Shown here: positions 1,196 through 14,109 of the stretch, piece by piece | Layout of the letters: every line of letters begins with the position of its first letter | Position numbering within the stretch: position 1 is the stretch's first letter | Assembly (NCBI GenBank): GCA_023419055.1 | Contig: JAEZYO010000096.1 | Location: forward strand, 1-14,405 | Direction: 5' to 3' | Origin: Pseudomonadota bacterium | Lineage (GTDB): Bacteria > Myxococcota > Polyangia > Polyangiales > Polyangiaceae | DNA length: 14,405 nt | Made by a program: the position numbers and the translations under genes | The notes under the pieces: model-generated | The model's database searches: none | Told to the model about the DNA's origin: nothing | The model's input: only the letters and a program-made list of their open reading frames with translations

Positions 1196-1225
1196 GTGAC
1201 GAGCCACGCGCGGCGACGCTATAGT
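1196..1225 (+). promoter_or_regulatory. Possible sigma-70-like promoter of the kinase gene
   Basis: TATAGT at 1220-1225 is a good -10 match in otherwise very GC-rich sequence. GTGACG at 1196-1201 is a mediocre -35, with an 18-nt spacer. If used, transcription would begin about 1231-1233, just before ATG 1236, giving a leaderless or nearly leaderless mRNA and ruling out GTG 1224 as the start. The call rests on sequence inspection only and could be chance. Confidence 0.3.
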
Positions 1226-1235
1226 GCGAAGGTTC

Positions 1236-2507
1236 ATGGAGGACTTCGTCGAAGCGCGCGTCGGGCAGCTGATGGGCCAACGCTGGACGTTGCGCCGAGT
1301 GCTCGGAGTGGGCGGGATGGCCGCGGTCTACGAAGCGACCGACGAGAGCGGAGCCGAGGTCGCGGTCAAGGTGCTTCACCCGGAGTTCGGCGCTCGCTCT
1401 CAGGTCCGTGAACGCTTCCTGCGGGAAGGCTACGTGGCTAACCGCGTCGACCACCTGGGCGCGGTGCGCGTGCTCGAGCACGGAGCAGTGGACGATCGCA
1501 ACGTGTTCCTCGTCATGGAGCTCCTGCGGGGGGAGTCGCTCGCCGATCTCGTCGCGCGCCAGGGAACGTACTCGGTCGCGAGCCTGCTCGATCTGATGGA
1601 TCAGGTGCTCGACGTCCTCGCCGTCGCTCACGAAGCCGGGATCGTTCACCGCGATCTCAAGCCGGACAACCTCTTCGTCACCGAAGAGGGCGCGATCAAG
1701 GTCCTCGACTTCGGGGTGGCGCGCGTGCTCGAGGGCGCGCCGGACGACCTCCGCACTCGCACGGGGATGGCGATGGGCACGCTCTCTTACATGGCCCCGG
1801 AGCAAGCGCTCGGGAACCGAGGGGAGGTCGACGGTAGGATCGATCTGTTCGCGCTCGGCGCGACGGCCTTTCGCGTCCTCGCCCGGCGCCGAATTCACGA
1901 GGCCGACAGCGACGCGGGCTTGCTCGTCGCGATGGCGACCAAACCCGCTCCGCCGCTCGCCAGCGTCGTGGCAGACGTTCCTCCGGGTGTCGCCGCCATC
2001 GTCGACCTTGCCCTCGCCTTCAGCCGCGACGCTCGCTACCCCGACGCTCGCACCATGCGAGAAGACGTGCTCGCCGTAAAACGCGGGGACGCTCCCCCCT
2101 ACGCCAGTAGCCGCCACCGCGCCCGCGACGAGGCGACGCAGGCGGGGGTTTCGCTCCCGGCGTCGACGGCCGCTACACGTGCGCCGGTGGAGGCTTTCGC
2201 GGCGACGGCGCTGGCCTTGCCGGCGCCTCTCGCAACGAGCTCGCCCTCGAACTCCACGCCGGAGGCGATCGACGCTTCGACGAGCGCACCTCGAGCGATA
2301 CCGCCTTGGCAGCTGGCGGTCGCCGCGGTGGGTCTCCTGCTCCTCGGCGGACTGCTCTCACTCACCTTCTCCGGCTCTGCACCCGATGCCACGGAAGACG
2401 CCGAAGCCGCGTCGCGCTCGCTCGAGGGGACGGAGCTCGGACAGGCGCGCGAGGAAGAGCCCCGGGACGTGCAGCACGGGAACGAGCGCACTCGCGCCCG
2501 ACGCTAG
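1236..2507 (+). CDS. Membrane-anchored serine/threonine protein kinase (Hanks/PknB type)
   Basis: 423 residues from ATG 1236. An in-frame GTG at 1224 would add four; I prefer 1236 because 1224 lies inside a -10-like TATAGT and neither start has a proper Shine-Dalgarno. Numbered from 1224, the kinase domain spans about residues 20-285. It has the glycine loop GVGGMAAVY (28-36), catalytic Lys49 in VAVKVL, HRDLKPDN (142-149), DFG (162-164) and APE (191-193), so it should be active. An Ala/Pro/Ser/Thr-rich linker (about 290-360) follows, then one hydrophobic span (363-383), then a short charged tail. This is the usual topology of a cytoplasmic kinase tethered to the inner membrane. The tail has no recognisable sensor domain. 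By family it autophosphorylates and phosphorylates Ser/Thr on partner proteins; its partners are unknown. The TAG stop overlaps the stop of the opposing gene within CTAG at 2504-2507. Confidence 0.93.
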   Translation: MEDFVEARVGQLMGQRWTLRRVLGVGGMAAVYEATDESGAEVAVKVLHPEFGARSQVRERFLREGYVANRVDHLGAVRVLEHGAVDDRNVFLVMELLRGESLADLVARQGTYSVASLLDLMDQVLDVLAVAHEAGIVHRDLKPDNLFVTEEGAIKVLDFGVARVLEGAPDDLRTRTGMAMGTLSYMAPEQALGNRGEVDGRIDLFALGATAFRVLARRRIHEADSDAGLLVAMATKPAPPLASVVADVPPGVAAIVDLALAFSRDARYPDARTMREDVLAVKRGDAPPYASSRHRARDEATQAGVSLPASTAATRAPVEAFAATALALPAPLATSSPSNSTPEAIDASTSAPRAIPPWQLAVAAVGLLLLGGLLSLTFSGSAPDATEDAEAASRSLEGTELGQAREEEPRDVQHGNERTRARR

Positions 2508-2776
2508 CGCGAAGGCCCGGCCGAACTCAGGTTCGGCGCGTCGACGAGGATCGTGCCGCGCACGTATCCGGCCTCGCCGCCCCCTTCCCTGAGGAGCTCC
2601 CAGCTGTCGATCGACACCGCGTAGCGCCGCCCTTCCTCGGTCTCGAGGATGCCGCTTGCCAGCGCCGGGTGCGAAGCGAGATACGGAGCGATCCAGGCAG
2701 TAAAGACGCGCGCATCTATCCTGAGCCGCGCGAGCGAGCAGATCTCGTCACCGTCCTGGCTCAATAGGCGCGCCAC
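2504..2776 (-). CDS. Small hypothetical protein
   Basis: I do not recognise this protein. From GTG 2776 it has 90 residues, beginning VARLLSQDGDEICSLARLRI and including the segment ILETEEGRRYAVSIDSWELL. It has no signal peptide or membrane span, and it looks like a small alpha/beta cytoplasmic protein. Codons in the body are strongly G/C-ending like its neighbours, and the TAG stop abuts the kinase stop in CTAG, the same compact arrangement as at 6119-6122. Both support a real gene. The frame stays open upstream to TTG 2890 (128 residues). That extra stretch has less typical codons and holds a hairpin and repeats, so I prefer the shorter start. It could be cotranscribed with the FKBP gene upstream. 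Confidence is moderate that it is coding and low for the start. Confidence 0.5.
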   Translation of the reverse strand: MARLLSQDGDEICSLARLRIDARVFTAWIAPYLASHPALASGILETEEGRRYAVSIDSWELLREGGGEAGYVRGTILVDAPNLSSAGPSR

Positions 2777-2831
2777 CAAACCGCATTTACTGCCTAAACG
2801 TGGCCGCGGTCCAGGTATCCCGTGCGCCGTG

Positions 2832-2865
2832 GCGCTTTGCCCCGATGAGCGTCGCGGCAAAGCGC
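2832..2865. repeat. 10-bp inverted repeat (hairpin)
   Basis: GCGCTTTGCC (2832-2841) and GGCAAAGCGC (2856-2865) are perfect inverse complements around a 14-nt loop. Inside the loop CGA and TCG can add three more pairs across one C/C mismatch. The stem is strong in RNA on either strand. No U-run follows on the minus strand, so terminator function is uncertain. Confidence 0.55.
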
Positions 2866-2888
2866 TAGCGACCAAACCGCCGGACCGC

Positions 2889-2904
2889 AATGTTGTACAA
2901 CATT
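2889..2904. promoter_or_regulatory. 16-bp perfect palindrome, possible operator
   Basis: AATGTTGTACAACATT is a perfect dyad, and it is A/T-rich in a very GC-rich setting. It lies 11 nt past the FKBP stop on the minus strand and upstream of the small hypothetical gene. The size and symmetry fit a binding site for a dimeric helix-turn-helix regulator, possibly controlling an internal promoter for the downstream gene. The regulator is unknown. The sequence differs from the marR-region palindrome, although both contain ACAAC/GTTGT half-elements. Confidence 0.35.
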
Positions 2905-4328: not shown

Positions 4329-6122
4329 ATGACGAACCACGAAGCCGACACGCACCTCGCCCCGACACCCCGCCCCCTGCGTCTCGCCCTCGCCCGTATC
4401 GCTCCGTTTCTCGGCTGCCAAAAGCTTCGGATCGCCCTGATCGGCATCGTCGCCGTCGCGATGTCCGCGTTCGCCGCGATCGAGCCTCTCGCCGTAAAGC
4501 ACCTGTTCGATCGGCTGCTCGGCGCCACGGGAGCTCGGCACGTCCTCGTACCCATCGTCGTGCTCGGCGTCGTGCTCTTGACGCGCGAGCTGTTCGCCGC
4601 GGCGCTCGAGCGACTGGTGTGGCGGGTTCGGCTGGACGCAAACTTCGCGCTGCTCTCCGCGGCGGTGGATCGCCTCCACACGCTGCCGCTCTCGTATCAC
4701 CGCAATCGGGGCGTGGGCGCGACGATGACGCGACTCGACCGGGGCATCAGCGGAGCGACCGCTGCCTTCTCCGACCTCCTGGTGCAGCTCCTGCCCTCCC
4801 TCGCGTACCTGGTGCTCTCGCTCGTCGTCATGTTCGACCTCGAGTGGAGGCTCGCGCTCTCGGTGCTCATCTTGGCTCCATTGCCCGCGATCGTGGGCGC
4901 CCACGCAGCGCGGGAGCAGGTGTCCCGCGAGCGGCGCTTCCTGTCTCGCTGGACCCGCGCCTTCGCGCGCTTCAACGAGGTGCTGAACGGGATCGTCGTG
5001 GTGAAGAGCTTCGCGATGGAAGATCGCGAGAAGCGGCGCTTCTTGCGCGGTGTCTCCGAGGCCAACGCCATCGCGATCGAGGGCGTTCGCACGGATTCGC
5101 GCACCACCGCCGCCAAGAACGCGGCCATGGCCCTGGCGCGGCTCTGCGCGCTCGGCCCCGGCGGCTACCTGGTCCTCACCCACCAGGTCGGCGTCGGAAC
5201 GCTGCTCGCTTTCGTGGGCTACCTGAGCGGCCTCTTCCAACCTGTCCAGACCCTCACCGGTACGTACCAGACGTTGAAGCGCGCGAGCGTGTCGCTCGAG
5301 AGCGTGATCACCGTCCTCGATACCGAGGACACGCTCGGAGATGCGCCCTCCGCGCGCGACGCCGGTCCCATCACCGGTCACGTCGAGTTTCGCGACGTCG
5401 GCTTCGAGTACCGGAAGGGCAAGCGCGTCCTCGACGGCGTGAGCTTCTCGGCCAAACCCGGCGAGGTGGTCGCGCTCGTCGGTCCGAGCGGCGCGGGCAA
5501 GAGCACCCTGATGGCGCTGCTTCAGCGCCTCTACGATCCTTCGCGAGGCAGCATCCTGATCGACGGGCACGACGTGCGTACCTTCAAGCAACGCTCGCTG
5601 CGGCAGCGTATCGGAGTCGTCATGCAAGAAGCGATGCTCTTCAGCGACTCGGTGCGCAACAACATCGCGTTCGGAGCGCCCGACGCGACCGAGTCGCAGA
5701 TCCAGAGGGCTGCGCGCGCCGCGAACGCCCATCACTTCATCGAGCGCCTTCCCCAGGCGTACGAGACTCACGTCGGCGAACGCGGAAACAAGCTGTCGAG
5801 CGGGGAGCGCCAGCGCGTCGCCATCGCGCGAGCGCTGTTGAAGGACGCTCCCATCCTGGTGCTCGACGAGGCGACGTCTTCGCTCGACGCGGAGAGCGAG
5901 GCCGAGGTGAAGGACGCGCTCTCGCGCCTCACGCGCGGAAGGACCACCTTCGTGGTCGCGCACCGGCTCTCGACCGTGGTCGCCGCCGATCGCATCGTCG
6001 TGCTCAAGGACGGCGGCGTGGAAGCGATAGGGACGCACGAGGAGCTCGAGCGCACGAACGGGTACTACGCTTCGCTCGTCGAGCGACAACGCGACGGCGT
6101 GCTGCTCGACGAAGCCGCCTAA
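4329..6122 (+). CDS. ABC exporter, fused permease-ATPase half-transporter (MsbA/MDR type)
   Basis: 597 residues, the usual size of a half-transporter that works as a dimer. Residues about 30-320 form the six-span type 1 exporter membrane domain, for example LIGIVAVAMSAFAAIEPLAV and LVLSLVVMFDLEWRLALSVL. The nucleotide-binding domain covers about 355-590, with Walker A GPSGAGKS (385-392), Q-loop Gln433, signature LSSGERQ (489-495), Walker B ILVLDE (509-514), D-loop SLD and switch His545. All catalytic residues are present. By family it exports lipids, drugs or peptides using ATP; the substrate is unknown. The signature deviates slightly from LSGGQ but should be functional. The start is ATG 4329; a G-rich stretch about 16 nt upstream is a distant Shine-Dalgarno. 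Its TAA overlaps the stop of the convergent gene. Confidence 0.94.
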   Translation: MTNHEADTHLAPTPRPLRLALARIAPFLGCQKLRIALIGIVAVAMSAFAAIEPLAVKHLFDRLLGATGARHVLVPIVVLGVVLLTRELFAAALERLVWRVRLDANFALLSAAVDRLHTLPLSYHRNRGVGATMTRLDRGISGATAAFSDLLVQLLPSLAYLVLSLVVMFDLEWRLALSVLILAPLPAIVGAHAAREQVSRERRFLSRWTRAFARFNEVLNGIVVVKSFAMEDREKRRFLRGVSEANAIAIEGVRTDSRTTAAKNAAMALARLCALGPGGYLVLTHQVGVGTLLAFVGYLSGLFQPVQTLTGTYQTLKRASVSLESVITVLDTEDTLGDAPSARDAGPITGHVEFRDVGFEYRKGKRVLDGVSFSAKPGEVVALVGPSGAGKSTLMALLQRLYDPSRGSILIDGHDVRTFKQRSLRQRIGVVMQEAMLFSDSVRNNIAFGAPDATESQIQRAARAANAHHFIERLPQAYETHVGERGNKLSSGERQRVAIARALLKDAPILVLDEATSSLDAESEAEVKDALSRLTRGRTTFVVAHRLSTVVAADRIVVLKDGGVEAIGTHEELERTNGYYASLVERQRDGVLLDEAA

Positions 6123-7789
6123 AATCCCGGCGACTGCGCTGAAGCGGGCTCTTCGGCGAGCGGAGCTTCTTGCGCGCCGGCGGGGGACGCCTTCTGCGGC
6201 TTCGCCGGGCGCGCCGGCTCGTCGTCATCGAGCTCTACGCCGTACGGGTTGTCGTCGACCGCGGGCTTCGGCTTCGATGCCGTACGCGCGGTGCCTTGTG
6301 ACTCCATCGCCTCGGTGAGAAAGCTCGGGGGCGGAGCCGTCGGAGCCGTCTCCGCGAGCTCCACTTCGACCCGCGCGCGCGCGACCTTGGGCGGGGCCGG
6401 CGGAGCCTTGGGGAGAGCGCTCAGCGAGAGGACGGGCACCGCGGGCAACGTCTCCTCCGCTTTTGGCCGAACGGGCGCGGGCGGCGCGGCCGGGACGGCG
6501 CTCGCCGTCGCGGGGACCGTCGAAACGATCACGAGCGGCGTGGGCTCGGGACGATGAACCGCGATCGCAGTGACGATCGATGCCAGGAGGGCGGAGCCCG
6601 CGGAGGCCATGACCAGGTTCCGCGTGACGACCGTCCGCCGGCGCTTGCCCGCGTGCGTATATTCCTGCTCGGCAGCCCCCGCTTCAGCGGGCGGAGGAGT
6701 CGTGATCGGCTGGAGCGAATCGGGGACGAGCGAGGTCACCGCCGGGACCGTCGGGGGCGGAGCGGGAGAGACGACGATGGACGGTAGCGAAGGTTGCCGC
6801 GCACGGATCGGCGGCGCGCCCGACGGCGCTGCGGGCCGAGACGAGGGAGGGGGCGGCGTCGCGGGCCTCGATGGCGGCGGAGCCGCGCTGCGCGAAGGCG
6901 CTGGAGGCCGCTCGGAGGGCCCGACCGAGATGATGCGGGCCGGCGCGAGCGAAGCAGGTCGGGCCGGTTCAACCGGCTGCGCAGCCTCGTCGCGAGCCTC
7001 CTCCGCGAAGGCCAGCGTCGCGATGGGGCGCTCGTATACGGCGAGCGCCTTCTCGTCGGCTGTCGCAGCGGGCGGCGCCGCCGACGTGGACTTCCCGTGC
7101 GCCTCCTGAATTTGGCGCATCTTCAGCGTGTTGACGACCTGCGTCACGTTGTCGTCGTCATCGTCGTCGTCGTGACGGGAAGCTACCGGGTTGCTCGGCC
7201 GCGGATTGACCGGCTTGGAACCAAGCGGCGAGATTACCCCTGGATGAATCGACGCCATCGAAGGGCGGCTCGGGCGCGGTACCGGCGGCGAGGTCGAGCG
7301 CACCTTGGAGAGATCGGCGCGAGTCACCGGGTTCCTCGGGAGCGCGATGCGACGCGCACCCACCGGGGTGACGGGCGAGAGCGGAGAACCCTTTGCGATA
7401 GCGTTAGCAGGCGGCTCGCTCGGCCGGCTCGGGTTCGCGGATGCGCTCGGCGGCGGCGAGCTCGGCGCGCCGGTGATCGCGGACACGCCGGCGCCGCTCG
7501 GGACCTTCGGCGCCGACGGAACGAGCAACGCGAGCGCCGGAACGCTGCCGAGCTCGGTCCATTCCGACATGCCCCTCTTCCACACCAGCGACGTCGCGGA
7601 GATGCGACCGACCTTGAGCGCGTCGAGCAGCTCGAGCGTCGACATCACGACGATGTCGTCACCGCCGACGTTGACCCGGTAGTGCTCGGATCGATCGCTC
7701 GCGGGCGCTCGACTCGATGCCTCGGGCTTGTCCGAGTGCGCCGAGCTCTTCGAGGAAGTTTCCCAGTCGTCGTCGATCGAGTCCGCCAA
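6119..7789 (-). CDS. GYF_2-domain, proline-rich single-span membrane protein
   Basis: 556 residues from TTG 7789, the first start after an in-frame TAG, with a weak AGGG 8 nt upstream. Residues about 36-90 form a GYF_2 (DUF4339) domain: HYRVNVGG, then ELLDALKVGRISATSLVWKRGMSEWTELGSVP. By family this fold binds proline-rich or other peptides. About 300 residues of Pro/Ala/Ser-rich low-complexity linker follow, including a run of seven Asp (nt 7151-7171). A basic KRRR patch and one hydrophobic span (about 390-411) come next, then another Pro-rich region and an acidic, Pro-rich tail. Topology is probably N-terminus inside with an extended periplasmic tail. It resembles in layout GYF proteins linked to myxobacterial envelope and motility machines, but I see no specific partner. 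Function unknown. Confidence 0.85.
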   Translation of the reverse strand: MADSIDDDWETSSKSSAHSDKPEASSRAPASDRSEHYRVNVGGDDIVVMSTLELLDALKVGRISATSLVWKRGMSEWTELGSVPALALLVPSAPKVPSGAGVSAITGAPSSPPPSASANPSRPSEPPANAIAKGSPLSPVTPVGARRIALPRNPVTRADLSKVRSTSPPVPRPSRPSMASIHPGVISPLGSKPVNPRPSNPVASRHDDDDDDDNVTQVVNTLKMRQIQEAHGKSTSAAPPAATADEKALAVYERPIATLAFAEEARDEAAQPVEPARPASLAPARIISVGPSERPPAPSRSAAPPPSRPATPPPPSSRPAAPSGAPPIRARQPSLPSIVVSPAPPPTVPAVTSLVPDSLQPITTPPPAEAGAAEQEYTHAGKRRRTVVTRNLVMASAGSALLASIVTAIAVHRPEPTPLVIVSTVPATASAVPAAPPAPVRPKAEETLPAVPVLSLSALPKAPPAPPKVARARVEVELAETAPTAPPPSFLTEAMESQGTARTASKPKPAVDDNPYGVELDDDEPARPAKPQKASPAGAQEAPLAEEPASAQSPGF

Positions 7790-7923: not shown

Positions 7924-8310
7924 CTAACGCGAACCGGGCATCCGAGGCTTGATCGCGTCGTACCGAGTCGCCTGCTCCGGCGTCAGAACGGCCCTGATTT
8001 CACCATCGATGCGCGCCCGCAGGGTCCGAACCGGATCACCGCAGGACTCGAACATCTGCTTGCCGACGCGGTCGCGCTCGGCGCGGTGCTGCTCGAAAAT
8101 GCCGCGAATCTTCGCGGCTTGGGCGGCGTCGAGGTCGAGCTCGCGTTCGAGGGCGCGCAGCCTGAACTGCTCGAAGGCCTCGCGATCGCCGGTAAAGAGC
8201 CCGCGGGTTTCGGCGCGAGCATAGGCATACGAGGCCGAGCCGCCCGCGACCGCGCCGAAAAGAAAGACTCCTGCCACGAGCCCGTACGCCTTCAGCCGTG
8301 CTCGGGTCAC
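7924..8310 (-). CDS. Periplasmic Spy/CpxP/CnrX-like (LTxxQ, metal-resistance family) sensor
   Basis: 128 residues from GTG 8310, whose GTGA overlaps the stop of the preceding gene. Residues about 8-28 (YGLVAGVFLFGAVAGGSASY) are a signal anchor or signal peptide. The rest is helical and polar, with ALERELDLDAAQAAKIRGIF, then EQHRAERDRV, and a VLTPEQATRYD motif (LTxxQ, 109-113). This is the pattern of the Spy/CpxP/ZraP/CnrX superfamily of periplasmic chaperones and metal sensors. His75, Met86 and Cys90 are possible metal ligands. As third gene after an ECF sigma factor and a small membrane protein, it probably acts as the periplasmic sensor that holds the anti-sigma factor in check (inference). 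It ends in TAG; no obvious terminator follows. The family call is fairly good; the sensor role rests on context. Confidence 0.8.
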   Translation of the reverse strand: MTRARLKAYGLVAGVFLFGAVAGGSASYAYARAETRGLFTGDREAFEQFRLRALERELDLDAAQAAKIRGIFEQHRAERDRVGKQMFESCGDPVRTLRARIDGEIRAVLTPEQATRYDAIKPRMPGSR

Positions 8311-8582
8311 CAGACGAGCTCCTGGGTGGCGGGCTCGGAAGCGGCGATGGCCCGATTCGAGGATTGCTCGCTCTGGAGCGCCCAGGCAGCAGAGAGCAAC
8401 GCCGCCACGATCGCCACGGGCAGTAGCCGGCGAGCGGAGCGCAGCAGCTCGACCCCCGGGACGAACGCCGAATCGCCCACGCCGAGCATGACGCGGTCCG
8501 CGAAGCCCGAGCTCGCCCGAAGAGCGGCGGTTCGCGCGCCGAGCTCCGCGAAACGCTTCGAGAGGTCGTCGCCTCCGTTCAT
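8307..8582 (-). CDS. Small single-span membrane protein, probable anti-sigma factor
   Basis: 91 residues, translationally coupled on both sides: its ATG overlaps the sigma stop (ATGA, 8579-8582) and its TGA overlaps the next GTG (GTGA, 8307-8310). The N-terminal 50 residues are soluble with amphipathic helices (DLSKRFAELGARTAALR). They are followed by one membrane span (RLLPVAIVAALLSAAWALQ, about 52-70) and a 20-residue periplasmic tail. There is no Cys or His, so it is not a ZAS-type zinc anti-sigma factor. Size and topology recall CnrY, the short membrane anti-sigma factor of the CnrYXH metal system, although I see no clear sequence signature. The anti-sigma assignment is therefore from position, size and topology, not a recognised domain. 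Confidence 0.75.
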   Translation of the reverse strand: MNGGDDLSKRFAELGARTAALRASSGFADRVMLGVGDSAFVPGVELLRSARRLLPVAIVAALLSAAWALQSEQSSNRAIAASEPATQELVW

Positions 8583-9106
8583 TCCTTCCTCCTCTCACGC
8601 AGCGCGGCCCTCGCTCGGACCAGCCGCTGCTCGACTGCTCCTTCCGAGCACGAAAGGATGGTCGCGATCTCGGGACTCGTGAGCCCCTCGACCGCCTTGA
8701 GGACGAGCGCTGCCCGCTGCTCCGGCGGTAAGCCCTCGAGAAGATCGGCGAGCTCGCGCAACGCGACGCGCGACTCGAGCAGGGAGGCGCCTTCCCAAGC
8801 TCGCTGCGTCAGCTCGTCGGCGGGAACGCGCCTGCGTGACCGGCCTCGCAACGCGTCGATCGAAGCGTGCGTGACGATGCGATAGAGCCAGGTCTTGACG
8901 GTCGAGCGCCCATCGAAACGGCCGGCCACGAGCTCGCGGTGAGCTTTCACGAAAGCGTCCTGCACCACGTCCTCCGCATCAGCCAGGCTCCCCAACATGC
9001 GCGCCGACAGCCGCACGAGCTCGTCGCCGGTCGCTTCTACGATCGTTCGAAAAGCTCGGGTGTCTCCCGCTGCGACTTCGCGAGCCGCCTCTTCCAGGGT
9101 GTGCAC
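8579..9106 (-). CDS. ECF-type RNA polymerase sigma factor
   Basis: 175 residues from GTG 9106, preceded by GGAG at 9113-9116 with ideal 6-nt spacing. Region 2 covers about 18-90, with LADAEDVVQDAFVKAHREL (core binding and -10 recognition) and STVKTWLYRIVTHASIDALR. Region 4 covers about 115-172, with LPPEQRAALVLKAVEGLTSPEIATILSCSEGAVEQRLVRAR, whose helix-turn-helix reads the -35. Regions 1 and 3 are missing, as expected of extracytoplasmic-function sigma factors. It is first in a three-gene operon with a small membrane protein and a periplasmic sensor, and divergent from a MacAB-TolC efflux operon, its most likely target besides itself (inference). I could not find a convincing pair of matching ECF promoters in the intergenic region. 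Confidence 0.95.
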   Translation of the reverse strand: MHTLEEAAREVAAGDTRAFRTIVEATGDELVRLSARMLGSLADAEDVVQDAFVKAHRELVAGRFDGRSTVKTWLYRIVTHASIDALRGRSRRRVPADELTQRAWEGASLLESRVALRELADLLEGLPPEQRAALVLKAVEGLTSPEIATILSCSEGAVEQRLVRARAALRERRKE

Positions 9107-9301
9107 GCTGCTCTCCGAACGGCGGCGTCATGGTCCATTGACGACGCAGCCGGAGCAACCCCTACGGACCCTGGTGCGGAGCGAGCAGCGCGAATTCGGC
9201 ACGACGGCTCAACCTTGCGAATTTCATCGACTTTTGGCTCTCGACTATTTTTCCGCACCGCGCAGCGTAGGGTTCGGCCCCCTTCCGGCGTCGATGCTCT
9301 C
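9107..9301. other. Divergent intergenic region between the sigma operon and the efflux operon
   Basis: These 195 nt should hold both promoters. An A/T-richer patch lies at about 9211-9252, including TTGCGA (9215-9220) and TATTTT (9246-9251), but the 25-nt spacing is too long for sigma-70. TTGACG at 9138-9143 has no matching -10. No GGAAC/CGTC-type ECF promoter and no good dyad operator is evident by eye. Coordinates are simply those between the two chosen starts. Confidence 0.4.
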
Positions 9302-10612
9302 GTGGAAGCGACGACGGGCGATCCCGAGGTCCTGAAGAAGCTCGGTGTAGGCAAGCAGCGCAAAGGCCGGAGCTGGCTGGTGCGAGCCTTCGTGCTCATC
9401 GCGGTGCTCGCGCTGGCAGGCGGGTTCTTCGCTTGGCGCGCCAACCAGTCTCAAGCCAAGACCGAGACCTACGTCACGGCGCCCGTCGAGCTCGGTGATC
9501 TCCGAGAGACCGTCACGGCGACCGGCACCTTGAGCCCGCTCGACTCCGTCGAGGTCGGCGCCGAGGTGACCGGCCGCGTGATCAAGGTCCACGTCGACAT
9601 CAACGATCGCGTGGAAGAAGGCCAGATCCTGGTCGAGCTCGACACCGAGCAGCTCAAGGCGCGCGTCGACGAATCTCGAGCGCAGCTCTGGAGCTCTCAA
9701 GCCTCGCAGAAGAACGCGCTCGCGACGAGCAAGGAGGCCGAGGCGAAAGCAGCGCGCACGCTCGAGCTCCACAAGCGCGGGCTCGCGTCGGATCAGGAGC
9801 GCGAGACCGCGGACGCAGCGCTCGATCGGGCCAAGGCGTCGGTCTCGAGCGCGGCCGCCCAGGTCACCGTGGCGCAGGCCGGCTTGAAATCGGCACAAAC
9901 TTCGCTCAGCAAGGCGATCATTCGCTCTCCGATCACCGGCATCGTGCTCGCGCGCAGCGTCGAGCCCGGCCAGACCGTGACCGCAGGCTACCAGACCCCG
10001 ATCTTGTTCACGCTCGCCAAGGACCTGAGCCAGATGCAGCTCAAGATCGACGTGGACGAGGCCGACGTCGGGAAGGTCAGGGACGGCCAGGCGGCGACGT
10101 TCGTGGTGGACGCGTACCCGAAGCAGAATTTCGACTCGAAGGTCGTGCGCCTGAGCAACCTGCCGAAGACGGGGACCACCGTCATCACTTACGAGGGTGT
10201 ACTCACCGTCGACAACTCGGATCGGCTGCTGCGCCCCGGCATGACGGCGACCGCGACGATCGTCGTGAGCGAGAAGAAGGGCGTGCTCTCCATCCCGAAC
10301 GCCGCGCTGCGCTTCCAGCCCACCCAGCCGAAGACCAGCCTGATGGGCCCCGGCTTGCCCCTGCCGGGGATGGGCGGAGGGATGCGCGGCGGAGGGATGC
10401 GCGGCGGCGGTGGTTCGCCGAAGGCCGCGGGCTCCGCTGCCCCTTCCGCGCCGGAGAAGAAGCAAGACGGCGTCTACGTGGTGAAGAACGGCGCCCTCTC
10501 GCGCGTGCCGGTCGAGCTCGGCGCGAGTGACGGCCGCCGCACCGAGATCAAGGGCGGCGCAGTGACCCAAGGCTCCGAGGTCGTGATCGACGTGGCGGAG
10601 ACGCCTCAATGA
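9302..10612 (+). CDS. macA: MacA-type periplasmic adaptor (membrane fusion protein) of a tripartite efflux pump
   Basis: 436 residues from GTG 9302. The frame stays open upstream, but that stretch overlaps the sigma gene and lacks adaptor features. A cytoplasmic leader precedes one membrane span (about 26-44). Then come a lipoyl half (LSPLDSVEVGAEVTGRVIKVHVDINDRV split around the hairpin), a long coiled-coil hairpin (about 112-204, Ala/Gln/Glu-rich), and the second lipoyl half with IIRSPITGIVLARSVEPGQTV. The beta-barrel follows (LKIDVDEADVGKV), then a membrane-proximal domain. By family it links the inner-membrane ABC permease to TolC. A Gly/Met-rich insertion (about 347-372), encoded partly by a tandem DNA repeat, interrupts the membrane-proximal domain. 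No good Shine-Dalgarno is seen. The stop overlaps the next ATG (ATGA). Confidence 0.92.
   Translation: MEATTGDPEVLKKLGVGKQRKGRSWLVRAFVLIAVLALAGGFFAWRANQSQAKTETYVTAPVELGDLRETVTATGTLSPLDSVEVGAEVTGRVIKVHVDINDRVEEGQILVELDTEQLKARVDESRAQLWSSQASQKNALATSKEAEAKAARTLELHKRGLASDQERETADAALDRAKASVSSAAAQVTVAQAGLKSAQTSLSKAIIRSPITGIVLARSVEPGQTVTAGYQTPILFTLAKDLSQMQLKIDVDEADVGKVRDGQAATFVVDAYPKQNFDSKVVRLSNLPKTGTTVITYEGVLTVDNSDRLLRPGMTATATIVVSEKKGVLSIPNAALRFQPTQPKTSLMGPGLPLPGMGGGMRGGGMRGGGGSPKAAGSAAPSAPEKKQDGVYVVKNGALSRVPVELGASDGRRTEIKGGAVTQGSEVVIDVAETPQ
10373..10402 (+). repeat. Tandem 15-bp repeat inside macA
   Basis: Two exact adjacent copies of GGCGGAGGGATGCGC (10373-10387 and 10388-10402) are preceded and followed by imperfect copies. 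They encode a G-G-G-M-R repeat in the adaptor. The unit keeps frame (15 bp), so slippage would change loop length without breaking the protein. Confidence 0.85.
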
Positions 10613-11364
10613 GCAGCGCGATCGGAGCGCCGCGTGCGGTGGTGGAGTTCCGCGGCGTCTCGAAGATTTACGGCGAAGGCGACACCGAGGTGCGCGCGCT
10701 CGACGCGGTGGACATGCGCATCGACGAAGGTGAGTTCGTGGCGATCATGGGCGCGAGCGGCTCCGGAAAATCGACCTGCATGAACATCGTCGGTTGCCTG
10801 GACGTGCCGACCGGCGGCGCCTACCTCTTCCGAGGAGTGGACGTCGGCTCGCTCGACTCCGATCAGCGCGCGCTCCTGCGCCGTCACTACGTGGGCTTCG
10901 TGTTCCAGGGCTTCAACCTGCTGGCCCGCACGAGCGCCCTCGAGAACGTCGAGCTGCCGCTCGCCTACCGGCGGATCCCGAGCCGGGAGCGGCGCGAGCG
11001 GGCGCTCGCCGCGCTCGACGCGGTGGGTCTCGCCGATCGCCATCGCCACACGCCCTCCGAGCTCTCGGGGGGTCAGCAGCAGCGCGTCGCCATCGCGCGG
11101 GCGCTCGTCTGCGAGCCCTCGCTCCTGCTCGCGGACGAGCCCACGGGCAACCTCGACTCGTCGCGCAAGGTCTAGATCATGGAGCTCTTGGTGAAGCTCA
11201 ACGAAGACCGGAACATCAGCATCGCGATGGTGACGCACGAGCCCGACATGGAGCGCTTCGTCGGGCGCGTGATCTTGTTCCGCGACGGCAAGGTGGTCGA
11301 CCACGGCGTCGCTCGCCGGAGCAGTTTGCCGCCTCACCACGAGCAGCCCGGCGAGGGCGCATGA
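10609..11364 (+). pseudogene. macB: MacB-type ABC transporter ATPase, interrupted by an in-frame amber codon
   Basis: A 251-codon ATPase of the MacB/LolD family, with TAG at codon 189 (11173-11175). Before it lie Walker A MGASGSGKST, Gln100 of the Q-loop, signature LSGGQ (152-156), Walker B LLLADE (172-177) and D-loop NLDS. After it, in the same frame, lie IMELLVKLNEDRNISIAMVTHEPD, with the switch His, and VILFRDGKVVDHG. Homologues usually have Glu here (..VEIM..), so GAG to TAG is the simplest change. The stopped product (188 residues) lacks the H-loop. An AAGG at 11167-11170 sits 8 nt before ATG 11179, so reinitiation could make the 61-residue rest. Overlaps at both ends (ATGA with macA, ATGA with the permease) are intact. 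It may be a pseudogene, a split gene, a readthrough case or a sequencing error. Confidence 0.85.
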
Positions 11365-12566
11365 TCCGGCTCACGCTGCTCATGGCGCTGCGCGAGATCC
11401 GCCGCAACACGCTGCGATCGTTCTTGACCATGCTCGGGATCGTGATCGGCGTGGGCGCCGTGATCGCGCTCGTGACCATCGGCGAGGGCGCGAGCGCGCG
11501 CGTGACGGCGGACATCGGCAAGCTCGGGAACAAGCTCCTGATCGTGATGCCCGGCGGCATGCGCCGCTCGAGCGGCTTCTCGAGCGCCGCCGCGTTCACG
11601 CGTGACGACGTCCTTTCGATTCAGAGCGACGTGATCGGCGCCGACAAGGTCGCTCCCACCGTGAGCCGTCAGTCGCTCGTGGTCTGGGGCAACCGCAACT
11701 GGCGGACGAGCGTGACCGGAACGACGAACGCCTACTTGGACGTGCGCGCGTACACCGTCGCGAAGGGACGCGGCCTCTCCGACGCCGAGATGGCGGCAGG
11801 GCAGCCGCTCTGCCTGCTCGGCGCCACCACCGCCCGAGAGCTCTTCGGCAGCAGCGACCCCATCGGAGCCACCGTGCGCGTCGAGAAGCTGAGCTGCGAA
11901 ATCGTCGGCACCCTCGCGCCGAAAGGCCAGTCCGGGATGGGGCAGGACCAAGACGACGTGCTCATCATGCCGCTCCGCGCCGTGCAGCGGCGCCTCGTCG
12001 GCACGAACGACATCAGCGCGATCTACGTCTCGGCTGGCCCCTCTCACAGCACGACGCGGGTGAAGCAGCAAATCGAGAACCTTTTGCGGGAACGCCGGCG
12101 GATCGGCGCGGGCGCAGAGGACGACTTCAGCGTGCGCGACATGCAAGAGATCGCCGAGGCCATGAGCAGCGCCACCGGAACCATGACCGCGCTGCTCGGC
12201 GCGATCGCCGCGGTGAGCCTGTTGGTCGGCGGCATCGGGATCATGAACATCATGTTGGTCAACGTGACCGAGCGCACGCGCGAGATCGGGATCCGGCTCG
12301 CGATCGGCGCGCTCGCCAGCGAGGTCTTGCTCCAGTTCTTGGTCGAAGCCGTGGTGCTGTCGCTGCTCGGCGGGATGCTCGGGATCGCGATCGGCCTCGG
12401 CACCTCGCTCGCGGTGACGCGCTCCCTCTCGATGCCCTTCGTCGTTCAACCCGACATCCTGATCTTGGCCTTCTGCTTCTCGGCGCTGATCGGCGTCCTG
12501 TTCGGTTACCTGCCGGCGCTGAAGGCCGCGCGCATGAATCCCATCGAGGCATTGCGACATGAGTGA
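11361..12566 (+). CDS. macB: MacB-type ABC transporter permease (FtsX family)
   Basis: 401 residues from ATG 11361, overlapping the ATPase stop. TM1 is at about 21-41 (FLTMLGIVIGVGAVIALVTI). A large periplasmic MacB core domain (about 42-272) follows, then three spans at about 276-300, 326-352 and 365-387. Between TM2 and TM3 lies the conserved coupling segment RTREIGIRLAIGA, and the protein ends with the family's AARMNPIEALRHE. ATPase and permease are separate genes here, unlike the fused E. coli MacB. By family this mechanotransmission-type permease drives substrates from the periplasm through adaptor and TolC. Without a working ATPase upstream it would be idle unless another ATPase serves it. 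LolC/E-like roles are possible but less likely given the adjacent adaptor and TolC genes. Confidence 0.93.
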   Translation: MIRLTLLMALREIRRNTLRSFLTMLGIVIGVGAVIALVTIGEGASARVTADIGKLGNKLLIVMPGGMRRSSGFSSAAAFTRDDVLSIQSDVIGADKVAPTVSRQSLVVWGNRNWRTSVTGTTNAYLDVRAYTVAKGRGLSDAEMAAGQPLCLLGATTARELFGSSDPIGATVRVEKLSCEIVGTLAPKGQSGMGQDQDDVLIMPLRAVQRRLVGTNDISAIYVSAGPSHSTTRVKQQIENLLRERRRIGAGAEDDFSVRDMQEIAEAMSSATGTMTALLGAIAAVSLLVGGIGIMNIMLVNVTERTREIGIRLAIGALASEVLLQFLVEAVVLSLLGGMLGIAIGLGTSLAVTRSLSMPFVVQPDILILAFCFSALIGVLFGYLPALKAARMNPIEALRHE

Positions 12567-14109
12567 CCGACGCTTTCCGGGTCTAGCCCCCTTTCTTTCG
12601 CTCCTGTTCGTGGCCGGGGCTGCGCGGGCGGAGGAGCCCGCCAATAGCGCCGCGCCGGCGACCACCGCGACGACCGCCGCGCCACCGAGCGCTCTCCCCG
12701 AAGGGAGCGAGGGCATCGACGAACGCTCGGTCGTGCGGCGCGCCCTTTCGAACAACTCTTCCCTGATCTCCGCCAAGCTCGACGTCGAGCGCGCCAAGCA
12801 CGAAGTTGCCGCCGAAGAGGGGCGCTACCCCTACGTCTTCCAGGCGGACGCCGGATACACGCGCAGCGCTTCGCCTCGCCTCAACCCCGACGACTCGGTC
12901 CGCACCAGCACCTCGCGCTCCTACACGGTCGGGACCGCGCTTCGGCGAACGTTCGCGAACGGCACCAGCGCGGAGCTCCGGCTGCAAGGCGAGCGCTTCG
13001 AGAACGACGCGGAGACGAGCGAGCTCGGCGGCCTCTCTTCGAGCAGCGGCTACGGCACCTCCGCGCGCGCGACGCTCAACCAGCCGTTCTTGCGCGGCGC
13101 CGGCACGCGCGTCGGCGAGTCCGAGCTCCGCTCCGCTCGCTGGAACCGCACGCTCGCCGAGCGCTCGAAGACACTCGCCGAGAGCGAGCTCGTGCGCGAC
13201 GCGTTGGTCGCGTATTGGGAGCTCTGGTACGCGGGTGAAGCGCTCGCCATCGAGCAGAAGGCGCTCGAGCTCAGCGAGCGCCAAGCGGAGGAGGCGCGGC
13301 AGCAGGTCTCGGCGGGATCGCTCTCGCAGAGCGGCGTCTTGACCTTCGAGACCCGCGTCGCCGAGCTCGAAGAGTCGGTCGTCTCCGCTCGCATCCTCCG
13401 CGAGCAGCGCGCGCTCGAGCTCGGTCGCTTGATGGGCTCGAACGACGAGCGCGCCGCGTACCTCGCCGCCTCCACCGAGCCTCCGCTCGACGGGCCGAGC
13501 GCGAGCCGAGCCGAGATCGAGGCTGCGCTGCGCGGCGGTTCGCTCGAGCTCTCGACGCTCGAAGCACAGGTGGCGCTGGCCAAGACGCGCGCCGAGGTCG
13601 CAGGCGAGAGCAGCCGCCCCCGGCTCGACCTCGAGGCTTACCTCGAGACGCAGGGCATCAGCGAGCGCCTGCCGAAGGCCGCCGAGCGAGCAGGCCAGAT
13701 GAGCTGGGTCACCGCGCACGTCGGGCTCGTGTTCGAGCTCCCGCTCGACGATTCTCGCCTCACGGCCGAGCGCAGCAGCGCGCAGCTCTCCGTACGCATC
13801 GCCGAACAGAGCGTGGTCGCGGAGCGCGAGCGCATCACCGCCGCGGCCACGCTGGCTCGCTCTCGGGAGGACGCTGCACAGAGGCGGCTCACGCTCGCCA
13901 CGCGCACGCTCGCCGTCGCCGAGAAGACGTACGAGGCGGAGAAGGCGCGCTTCGAGTTCGGGCAGTCGATCCCGATTCAGGTCCAGGAAGCCGAAGACGA
14001 CCTCCGGCGCGCTCGCCTGCGGGTAGCTCGCGCTCGGGTCGACCTGGCGGCGGCGCGTGTCGATGTGCTCCACCTCGCGAACCGCTTGCTCGCGAACTAC
14101 AAAGGCTAA
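12559..14109 (+). CDS. TolC-family outer-membrane efflux channel
   Basis: 516 residues from ATG 12559, overlapping the permease end by 8 nt. A signal peptide (MSDRRFPGLAPFLSLLFVAG, then AARA before EE) is followed by an Ala/Thr-rich linker. Two outer-membrane-efflux-protein repeats come next: long alpha-helices (VERAKHEVAAEEGRYPYVFQ; ALAIEQKALELSERQAEEAR; AEKTYEAEKARFEFGQ; EAEDDLRRARLRVARARVDL) alternating with beta segments (SYTVGTALRRTFANGT; WVTAHVGLVFELPL). The second repeat ends in the usual VDVLHLANRLLANYKG. By family it trimerises into a barrel plus periplasmic tunnel that docks to the adaptor. It is the last gene of the efflux operon proper and completes the MacA-MacB-TolC set. Confidence 0.93.
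   Translation: MSDRRFPGLAPFLSLLFVAGAARAEEPANSAAPATTATTAAPPSALPEGSEGIDERSVVRRALSNNSSLISAKLDVERAKHEVAAEEGRYPYVFQADAGYTRSASPRLNPDDSVRTSTSRSYTVGTALRRTFANGTSAELRLQGERFENDAETSELGGLSSSSGYGTSARATLNQPFLRGAGTRVGESELRSARWNRTLAERSKTLAESELVRDALVAYWELWYAGEALAIEQKALELSERQAEEARQQVSAGSLSQSGVLTFETRVAELEESVVSARILREQRALELGRLMGSNDERAAYLAASTEPPLDGPSASRAEIEAALRGGSLELSTLEAQVALAKTRAEVAGESSRPRLDLEAYLETQGISERLPKAAERAGQMSWVTAHVGLVFELPLDDSRLTAERSSAQLSVRIAEQSVVAERERITAAATLARSREDAAQRRLTLATRTLAVAEKTYEAEKARFEFGQSIPIQVQEAEDDLRRARLRVARARVDLAAARVDVLHLANRLLANYKG

Follow-up and report, generated by a model that had tools for sequence, protein, structure and literature searches.

An in-frame amber codon (TAG) interrupts the ATPase gene of a MacAB-type export operon in the analysed window, a stretch of DNA of 14,405 nucleotides. 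It falls past the D-loop of a MacB-type ABC ATPase, ahead of the switch histidine, and splits the gene into open reading frames of 188 and 61 residues. The TAG is probably a recent, strain-private nonsense substitution, which most likely disabled this copy of the ATPase in an ordinary MacAB-type operon of an uncultured Polyangiaceae-like bacterium. The weights given to this explanation and to its rivals are our own judgement.

The operon lies on the forward strand and comprises overlapping genes for an adaptor, the ATPase, a permease and an outer membrane protein (Table 1). The adaptor matched the RND_mfp subfamily with 169 bits against a cut-off of 94.9, and its true start is probably further in than position 8867, with GTG 9302 as one candidate. 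The permease carried both the MacB_PCD and the FtsX domain of a MacB-type permease. Its length matched nearly all of the 120 relatives listed, the best of which was 91% identical. The relatives that bore a name, a minority of these 120, were mostly Polyangiaceae or Myxococcales, and also Sorangiineae, Myxococcota and, once, Pseudomonadota. In the genomes that were read by way of G001 and G002, the near-full-length permease matches had at most 55% identity and two partial matches had 62 and 63%, and the ATPase matches reached up to 71%.

Adjoining the operon on the reverse strand (7924–9106), there was an ECF sigma factor gene, a short ORF of 91 aa whose likeness to an anti-sigma factor was judged only by eye, and a gene that matched LTXXQ (CpxP-like) weakly, under the cut-off. 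These divergent genes could regulate the operon. A second ABC exporter was found at 4329–6122 on the forward strand; it was uninterrupted, had fused membrane and ATPase domains, and was MsbA-like below the equivalog cut-offs.

Table 1. Features of the export operon, its interrupted ATPase gene and the TAG-ended reading frames of the window.
Feature	Position	Strand	Evidence
Periplasmic adaptor (MacA/HlyD-like)	8867–10612	+	HlyD_D23 and HlyD_3 above Pfam cut-offs
ABC ATPase, N-terminal 188 residues	10609–11175	+	ABC_tran 108 bits (cut-off 25); alignment with 120 relatives
AAGG, Shine-Dalgarno-like	11167–11170	+	8 nt before ATG 11179; codons for Lys187-Val188
In-frame TAG, codon 189	11173–11175	+	Glu in 117/120 listed relatives, Asp in 3
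ATPase C-terminal remainder, 61 residues	11179–11364	+	Helix remainder, switch histidine, last strands
MacB-like permease (MacB_PCD + FtsX), 401 aa	11361–12566	+	MacB_PCD 162.2 bits (cut-off 27), FtsX 69.5 bits (cut-off 25.5)
Outer membrane efflux protein (TolC-like)	12559–14109	+	OEP 98.3 bits (cut-off 22)
TAG-ended ORF	1224–2507	+	Protein kinase, strong family match
TAG-ended ORF	2504–2890	-	
TAG-ended ORF	6119–7789	-	
TAG-ended ORF	7924–8598	-	Weak family match below cut-off

The ATPase frame begins at ATG 10609 and, past the TAG, stays open to the TGA at 11362–11364. The start overlaps the adaptor stop codon (TGA 10610–10612), and the permease start (ATG 11361) overlaps the TGA of the ATPase frame. 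The preliminary description had given the stop, the frame ends, the lengths of the two pieces and both overlaps, and direct reading confirmed all of them. The third-position GC content was 0.91 before the TAG and 0.92 after it, which indicated that the 61-residue downstream frame had kept the character of a gene and did not arise by chance.

The 188-residue piece held Walker A, the signature LSGGQ, Walker B and the D-loop in one PF00005 domain, along with the Q-loop; the match covered positions 1–136 of the 137 in the profile and residues 31–179 of the protein. The switch histidine of the H-loop (His210) was located past the TAG, in the 61-residue piece. Because the ABC_tran profile ends before the break, it is blind to the truncation. 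The alignment with the relatives shown had no gap at the break, and both pieces retained conserved residues in it.

Of the 7999 candidates scored in the protein search for the 188-residue piece, the best 120 were all 222–266 aa long and uninterrupted; none of them ended near residue 188, and the window's own piece was not among them. This search and the one with the 61-residue piece were run on 90% clusters, in which the individual members are invisible. The five closest relatives among those listed (P0121–P0125) were uninterrupted proteins of 251 aa each, 89–97% identical over the 188-residue piece. The search with the 61-residue piece, among candidates of about 34–107 aa, returned only one protein, which was 100% identical, sat on a contig of 17740 bases and was taken as the window's own. 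Thus, no recurrent split ABC ATPase was found among the 120 listed relatives or as a foreign C-terminal piece. Viral contigs yielded 19 relatives with at most 44% identity.

A single nucleotide change separates the TAG from a glutamate codon. The expectation that codon 189 would be Glu held within the clade, as the residue counts among the best 120 of the 7999 candidates showed (Table 1), and more distant relatives had other residues there as well. Among the best 80 genome loci that matched the N-terminal piece, none of which was titled Polyangiaceae or Myxococcales, 87 of 89 matches spanned this column, with Glu in 63, Asp in 8, Ala in 5, Gln and Ile in 3 each, Gly in 2, and Asn, Val and Met in 1 each. 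The two remaining matches fell short of it, one at a contig edge and the other where the alignment ended and the frame continued. Residue 189 is therefore conserved in the clade and not essential across the wider family.

Stops within the core of related ATPases were not seen in two background sets. In the best 80 loci, 7 of the 89 matches contained a stop, and all of these were at residues 7, 9 or 231–243, outside the core. The second background set comprised 99 genomes from the phylum to which G002 belongs, with 81 matches in 61 genomes at 1e-60. Nine of these were flagged with a stop; on re-reading, six had it at residue 8 or 236–241, and the other three had none in the aligned residues (about 10–231). 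Thus, none of the 89 matches and none of the 81 had a stop within residues 12–230, which gives a rough background only since both sets consist of distant relatives, and the sets are not strictly independent because the genome of locus L002 is G002. A relative of the permease in genome G045 (contig C1, 2390866–2392819) appeared as three adjoining matches, one of them with an internal TAG; this may be a further broken gene or a set of tandem copies. This one listed permease match indicated that such breaks occur elsewhere.

The window differed from all of P0121–P0125 at five positions only (33, 150, 189, 244, and 248). Compared with P0122, there were six differences in residues 1–188, one in 190–228 and five in the tail (229–251); compared with P0121, there were five, three and seven, respectively, and the intact pair P0121–P0122 differed at three, two and seven positions. 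Within residues 190–228, the window showed 3, 1, 4, 4, and 4 differences from P0121–P0125, and pairs among these five showed 2–5, or none for the near-identical P0123 and P0124; such small protein-level counts do not separate a recent change from an error or from continued selection. The preliminary description had noted no further decay, and none was visible beyond the TAG, the core of the 61-residue piece being as similar to its relatives as intact pairs are to each other. The lack of visible drift downstream suggested that the TAG is recent, or is an error, or that the C-terminal piece is still under selection.

An error in the consensus or in the sequencing of this metagenome contig would mean that the organism has a sense codon here and that its pump is intact. 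We regard this as rather unlikely. It would fit a change of a single codon in a gene with no other visible damage, a 61-residue piece known from one contig only, and listed relatives (the best 120 of 7999) that are all uninterrupted. The C-terminal piece without drift would fit it as well, as it would a very recent change or continued selection. However, no positive sign of an error was seen: the adjoining permease was full length compared with its relatives, and the family matches of the adaptor and the outer membrane protein were unbroken. Our literature search found no report on telling nonsense mutations from sequencing errors in metagenome assemblies. The preliminary description had left "recent, error, or tolerated" side by side. 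The absence of the stop from all 120 listed relatives and the five unique differences support the first two, and nothing positive was found for the third.

The consequence of a genuine stop was considered on a structure model of the intact relative P0122 (33 sequences; mean pLDDT 86.7; pTM 0.83). In this model, residue 189 lies in the helix 184–201, directly after the D-loop Asp183 and ahead of the strand leading to the invariant His210. The C-terminal piece would hold that histidine and the strands 204–209, 220–225, and 228–231. Since the break is inside the helix 184–201 of the model, the 188-residue product would be without a core part of the nucleotide-binding fold. The switch histidine has a known role in ABC ATPases, and on that ground the truncated ATPase, and with it this pump copy, has most likely lost its activity. 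If the nonsense allele is real, ribosomes would halt at codon 189, and the product would end before the switch histidine, without the helix remainder and the final strands of the fold.

A restart at ATG 11179, which begins 3 nt past the TAG, may yield the 61-residue piece, and the restarted ribosomes may then continue as far as the ATGA overlap at 11361, where translation of the permease could begin. Published work describes termination-reinitiation where stop and start codons adjoin or overlap (PMC6728339). The AAGG 8 nt before an ATG just past the stop, which had been pointed out earlier, was confirmed by reading positions 11167–11170 and 11179. This arrangement is what a tolerated split would need, in which reinitiation makes both pieces and these form a partly working ATPase, or else the 188-residue piece acts alone. 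The conserved residues kept in both pieces and the C-terminal piece without excess changes are also in line with such a split. We consider it improbable. The generic anti-SD duplex at the restart site (−3.8 kcal/mol) was the weakest of the four operon starts compared (ATPase, −6.6; permease, −7.0; OEP, −5.9 kcal/mol). The Lys-Val under the AAGG was also present in the five closest listed relatives, and the restart ATG corresponded to Met191, found in 112 of 120. Because the AAGG and the ATG fall in codons of residues common to intact relatives, there was no sign of an evolved split, and an evolved restart site was rejected as far as the relatives' protein residues, rather than their DNA, can tell. 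The claim of two working fragments fared poorly in other respects as well: the protein search contained no other separate C-terminal piece, the 120 listed relatives included no 188-aa form, and the break cuts a core helix of the P0122 model. Our literature search found no report of fragment complementation in ABC nucleotide-binding domains. It is very improbable that a single message yields both pieces by termination-reinitiation across the 3-nt gap and that these come together as a functional two-part nucleotide-binding domain, with a cut in a core helix after the D-loop being tolerated, and interest in a split ATPase would rise only if the two pieces were shown to work together.

A −1 frameshift ahead of the TAG, which would fuse the ATPase to the permease, was also rejected as a rescue, because the fused product would again be without the switch histidine. 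No slippery heptamer was seen by eye beside the TAG. The permease frame extended, without a stop, 189 codons ahead of its own start (10794–12566, forward strand), across the ATPase gene; this is probably a by-product of the high GC content, which was 68.6% in the window.

The TAG could also be read as an amino acid, through an amber suppressor tRNA or recoding, which would give a full ATPase of 251 residues and would agree with the open and conserved frame past the stop. We hold this to be extremely improbable. TAG terminated 4 of the 14 other ORFs examined in the window, which were chosen by us (Table 1), and no tRNA gene was found in the 14,405 nt. In the accessible text of a survey of over 250,000 genomes with Codetta, all previously known bacterial changes reassign UGA, the five new codes concern arginine codons, and no bacterial reassignment of UAG is named (PMC8629427). 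The earlier argument from four other genes ending in TAG therefore holds, and general amber recoding was rejected on these counts together with the survey, as far as its accessible text goes.

A recent nonsense substitution in this copy of the ATPase remains our preferred reading. The operon resembles MacAB-TolC (E. coli MacB; PDB 5nik, 5lj9) in having an adaptor, a MacB-like permease and a TolC-like protein in one operon, and the intact relative P0122 was 46% identical to the ABC domain of E. coli MacB in the fold alignment. In contrast to that system, the ATPase and the permease of the window are on separate genes, and the ATPase is cut by a stop. Neither the N-terminal piece (198.7 bits) nor the permease (252.7 bits) reached the cut-off of 966 of the MacB equivalog NF007826, which describes a fused ATPase-permease, and the adaptor (181.8 bits) was below the cut-off of 342 of the MacA equivalog NF008606. 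The free-standing MacB-type ATPases of Polyangiaceae, Myxococcales and metagenomes, P0121–P0125 among them, had similar length, sequence and motifs; the 120 listed are uninterrupted, whereas the window copy has the stop.

By fold, the P0122 model matched MJ0796, 5xu1 and MacB ABC domains. The nearest solved relatives of P0122 in both sequence and fold were 5xu1, an ABC ATPase of S. pneumoniae, and MJ0796 (1f3o, 1l2t), which are likewise free-standing and of the MacB/LolD type. At the aligned position 189, these two have Gln and Lys, respectively, compared with Glu in the clade. This indicated that the residue can vary and that only the stop is unusual.

Nothing calls for a new mechanism, and a premature stop in one copy of an export-pump gene is ordinary. 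Annotation based on domains would call the broken ATPase intact, as ABC_tran matches the truncated piece almost fully, and caution is needed on this point. If real, the TAG would be a further null allele of a pump subunit, carried by an uncultured population of myxobacteria.
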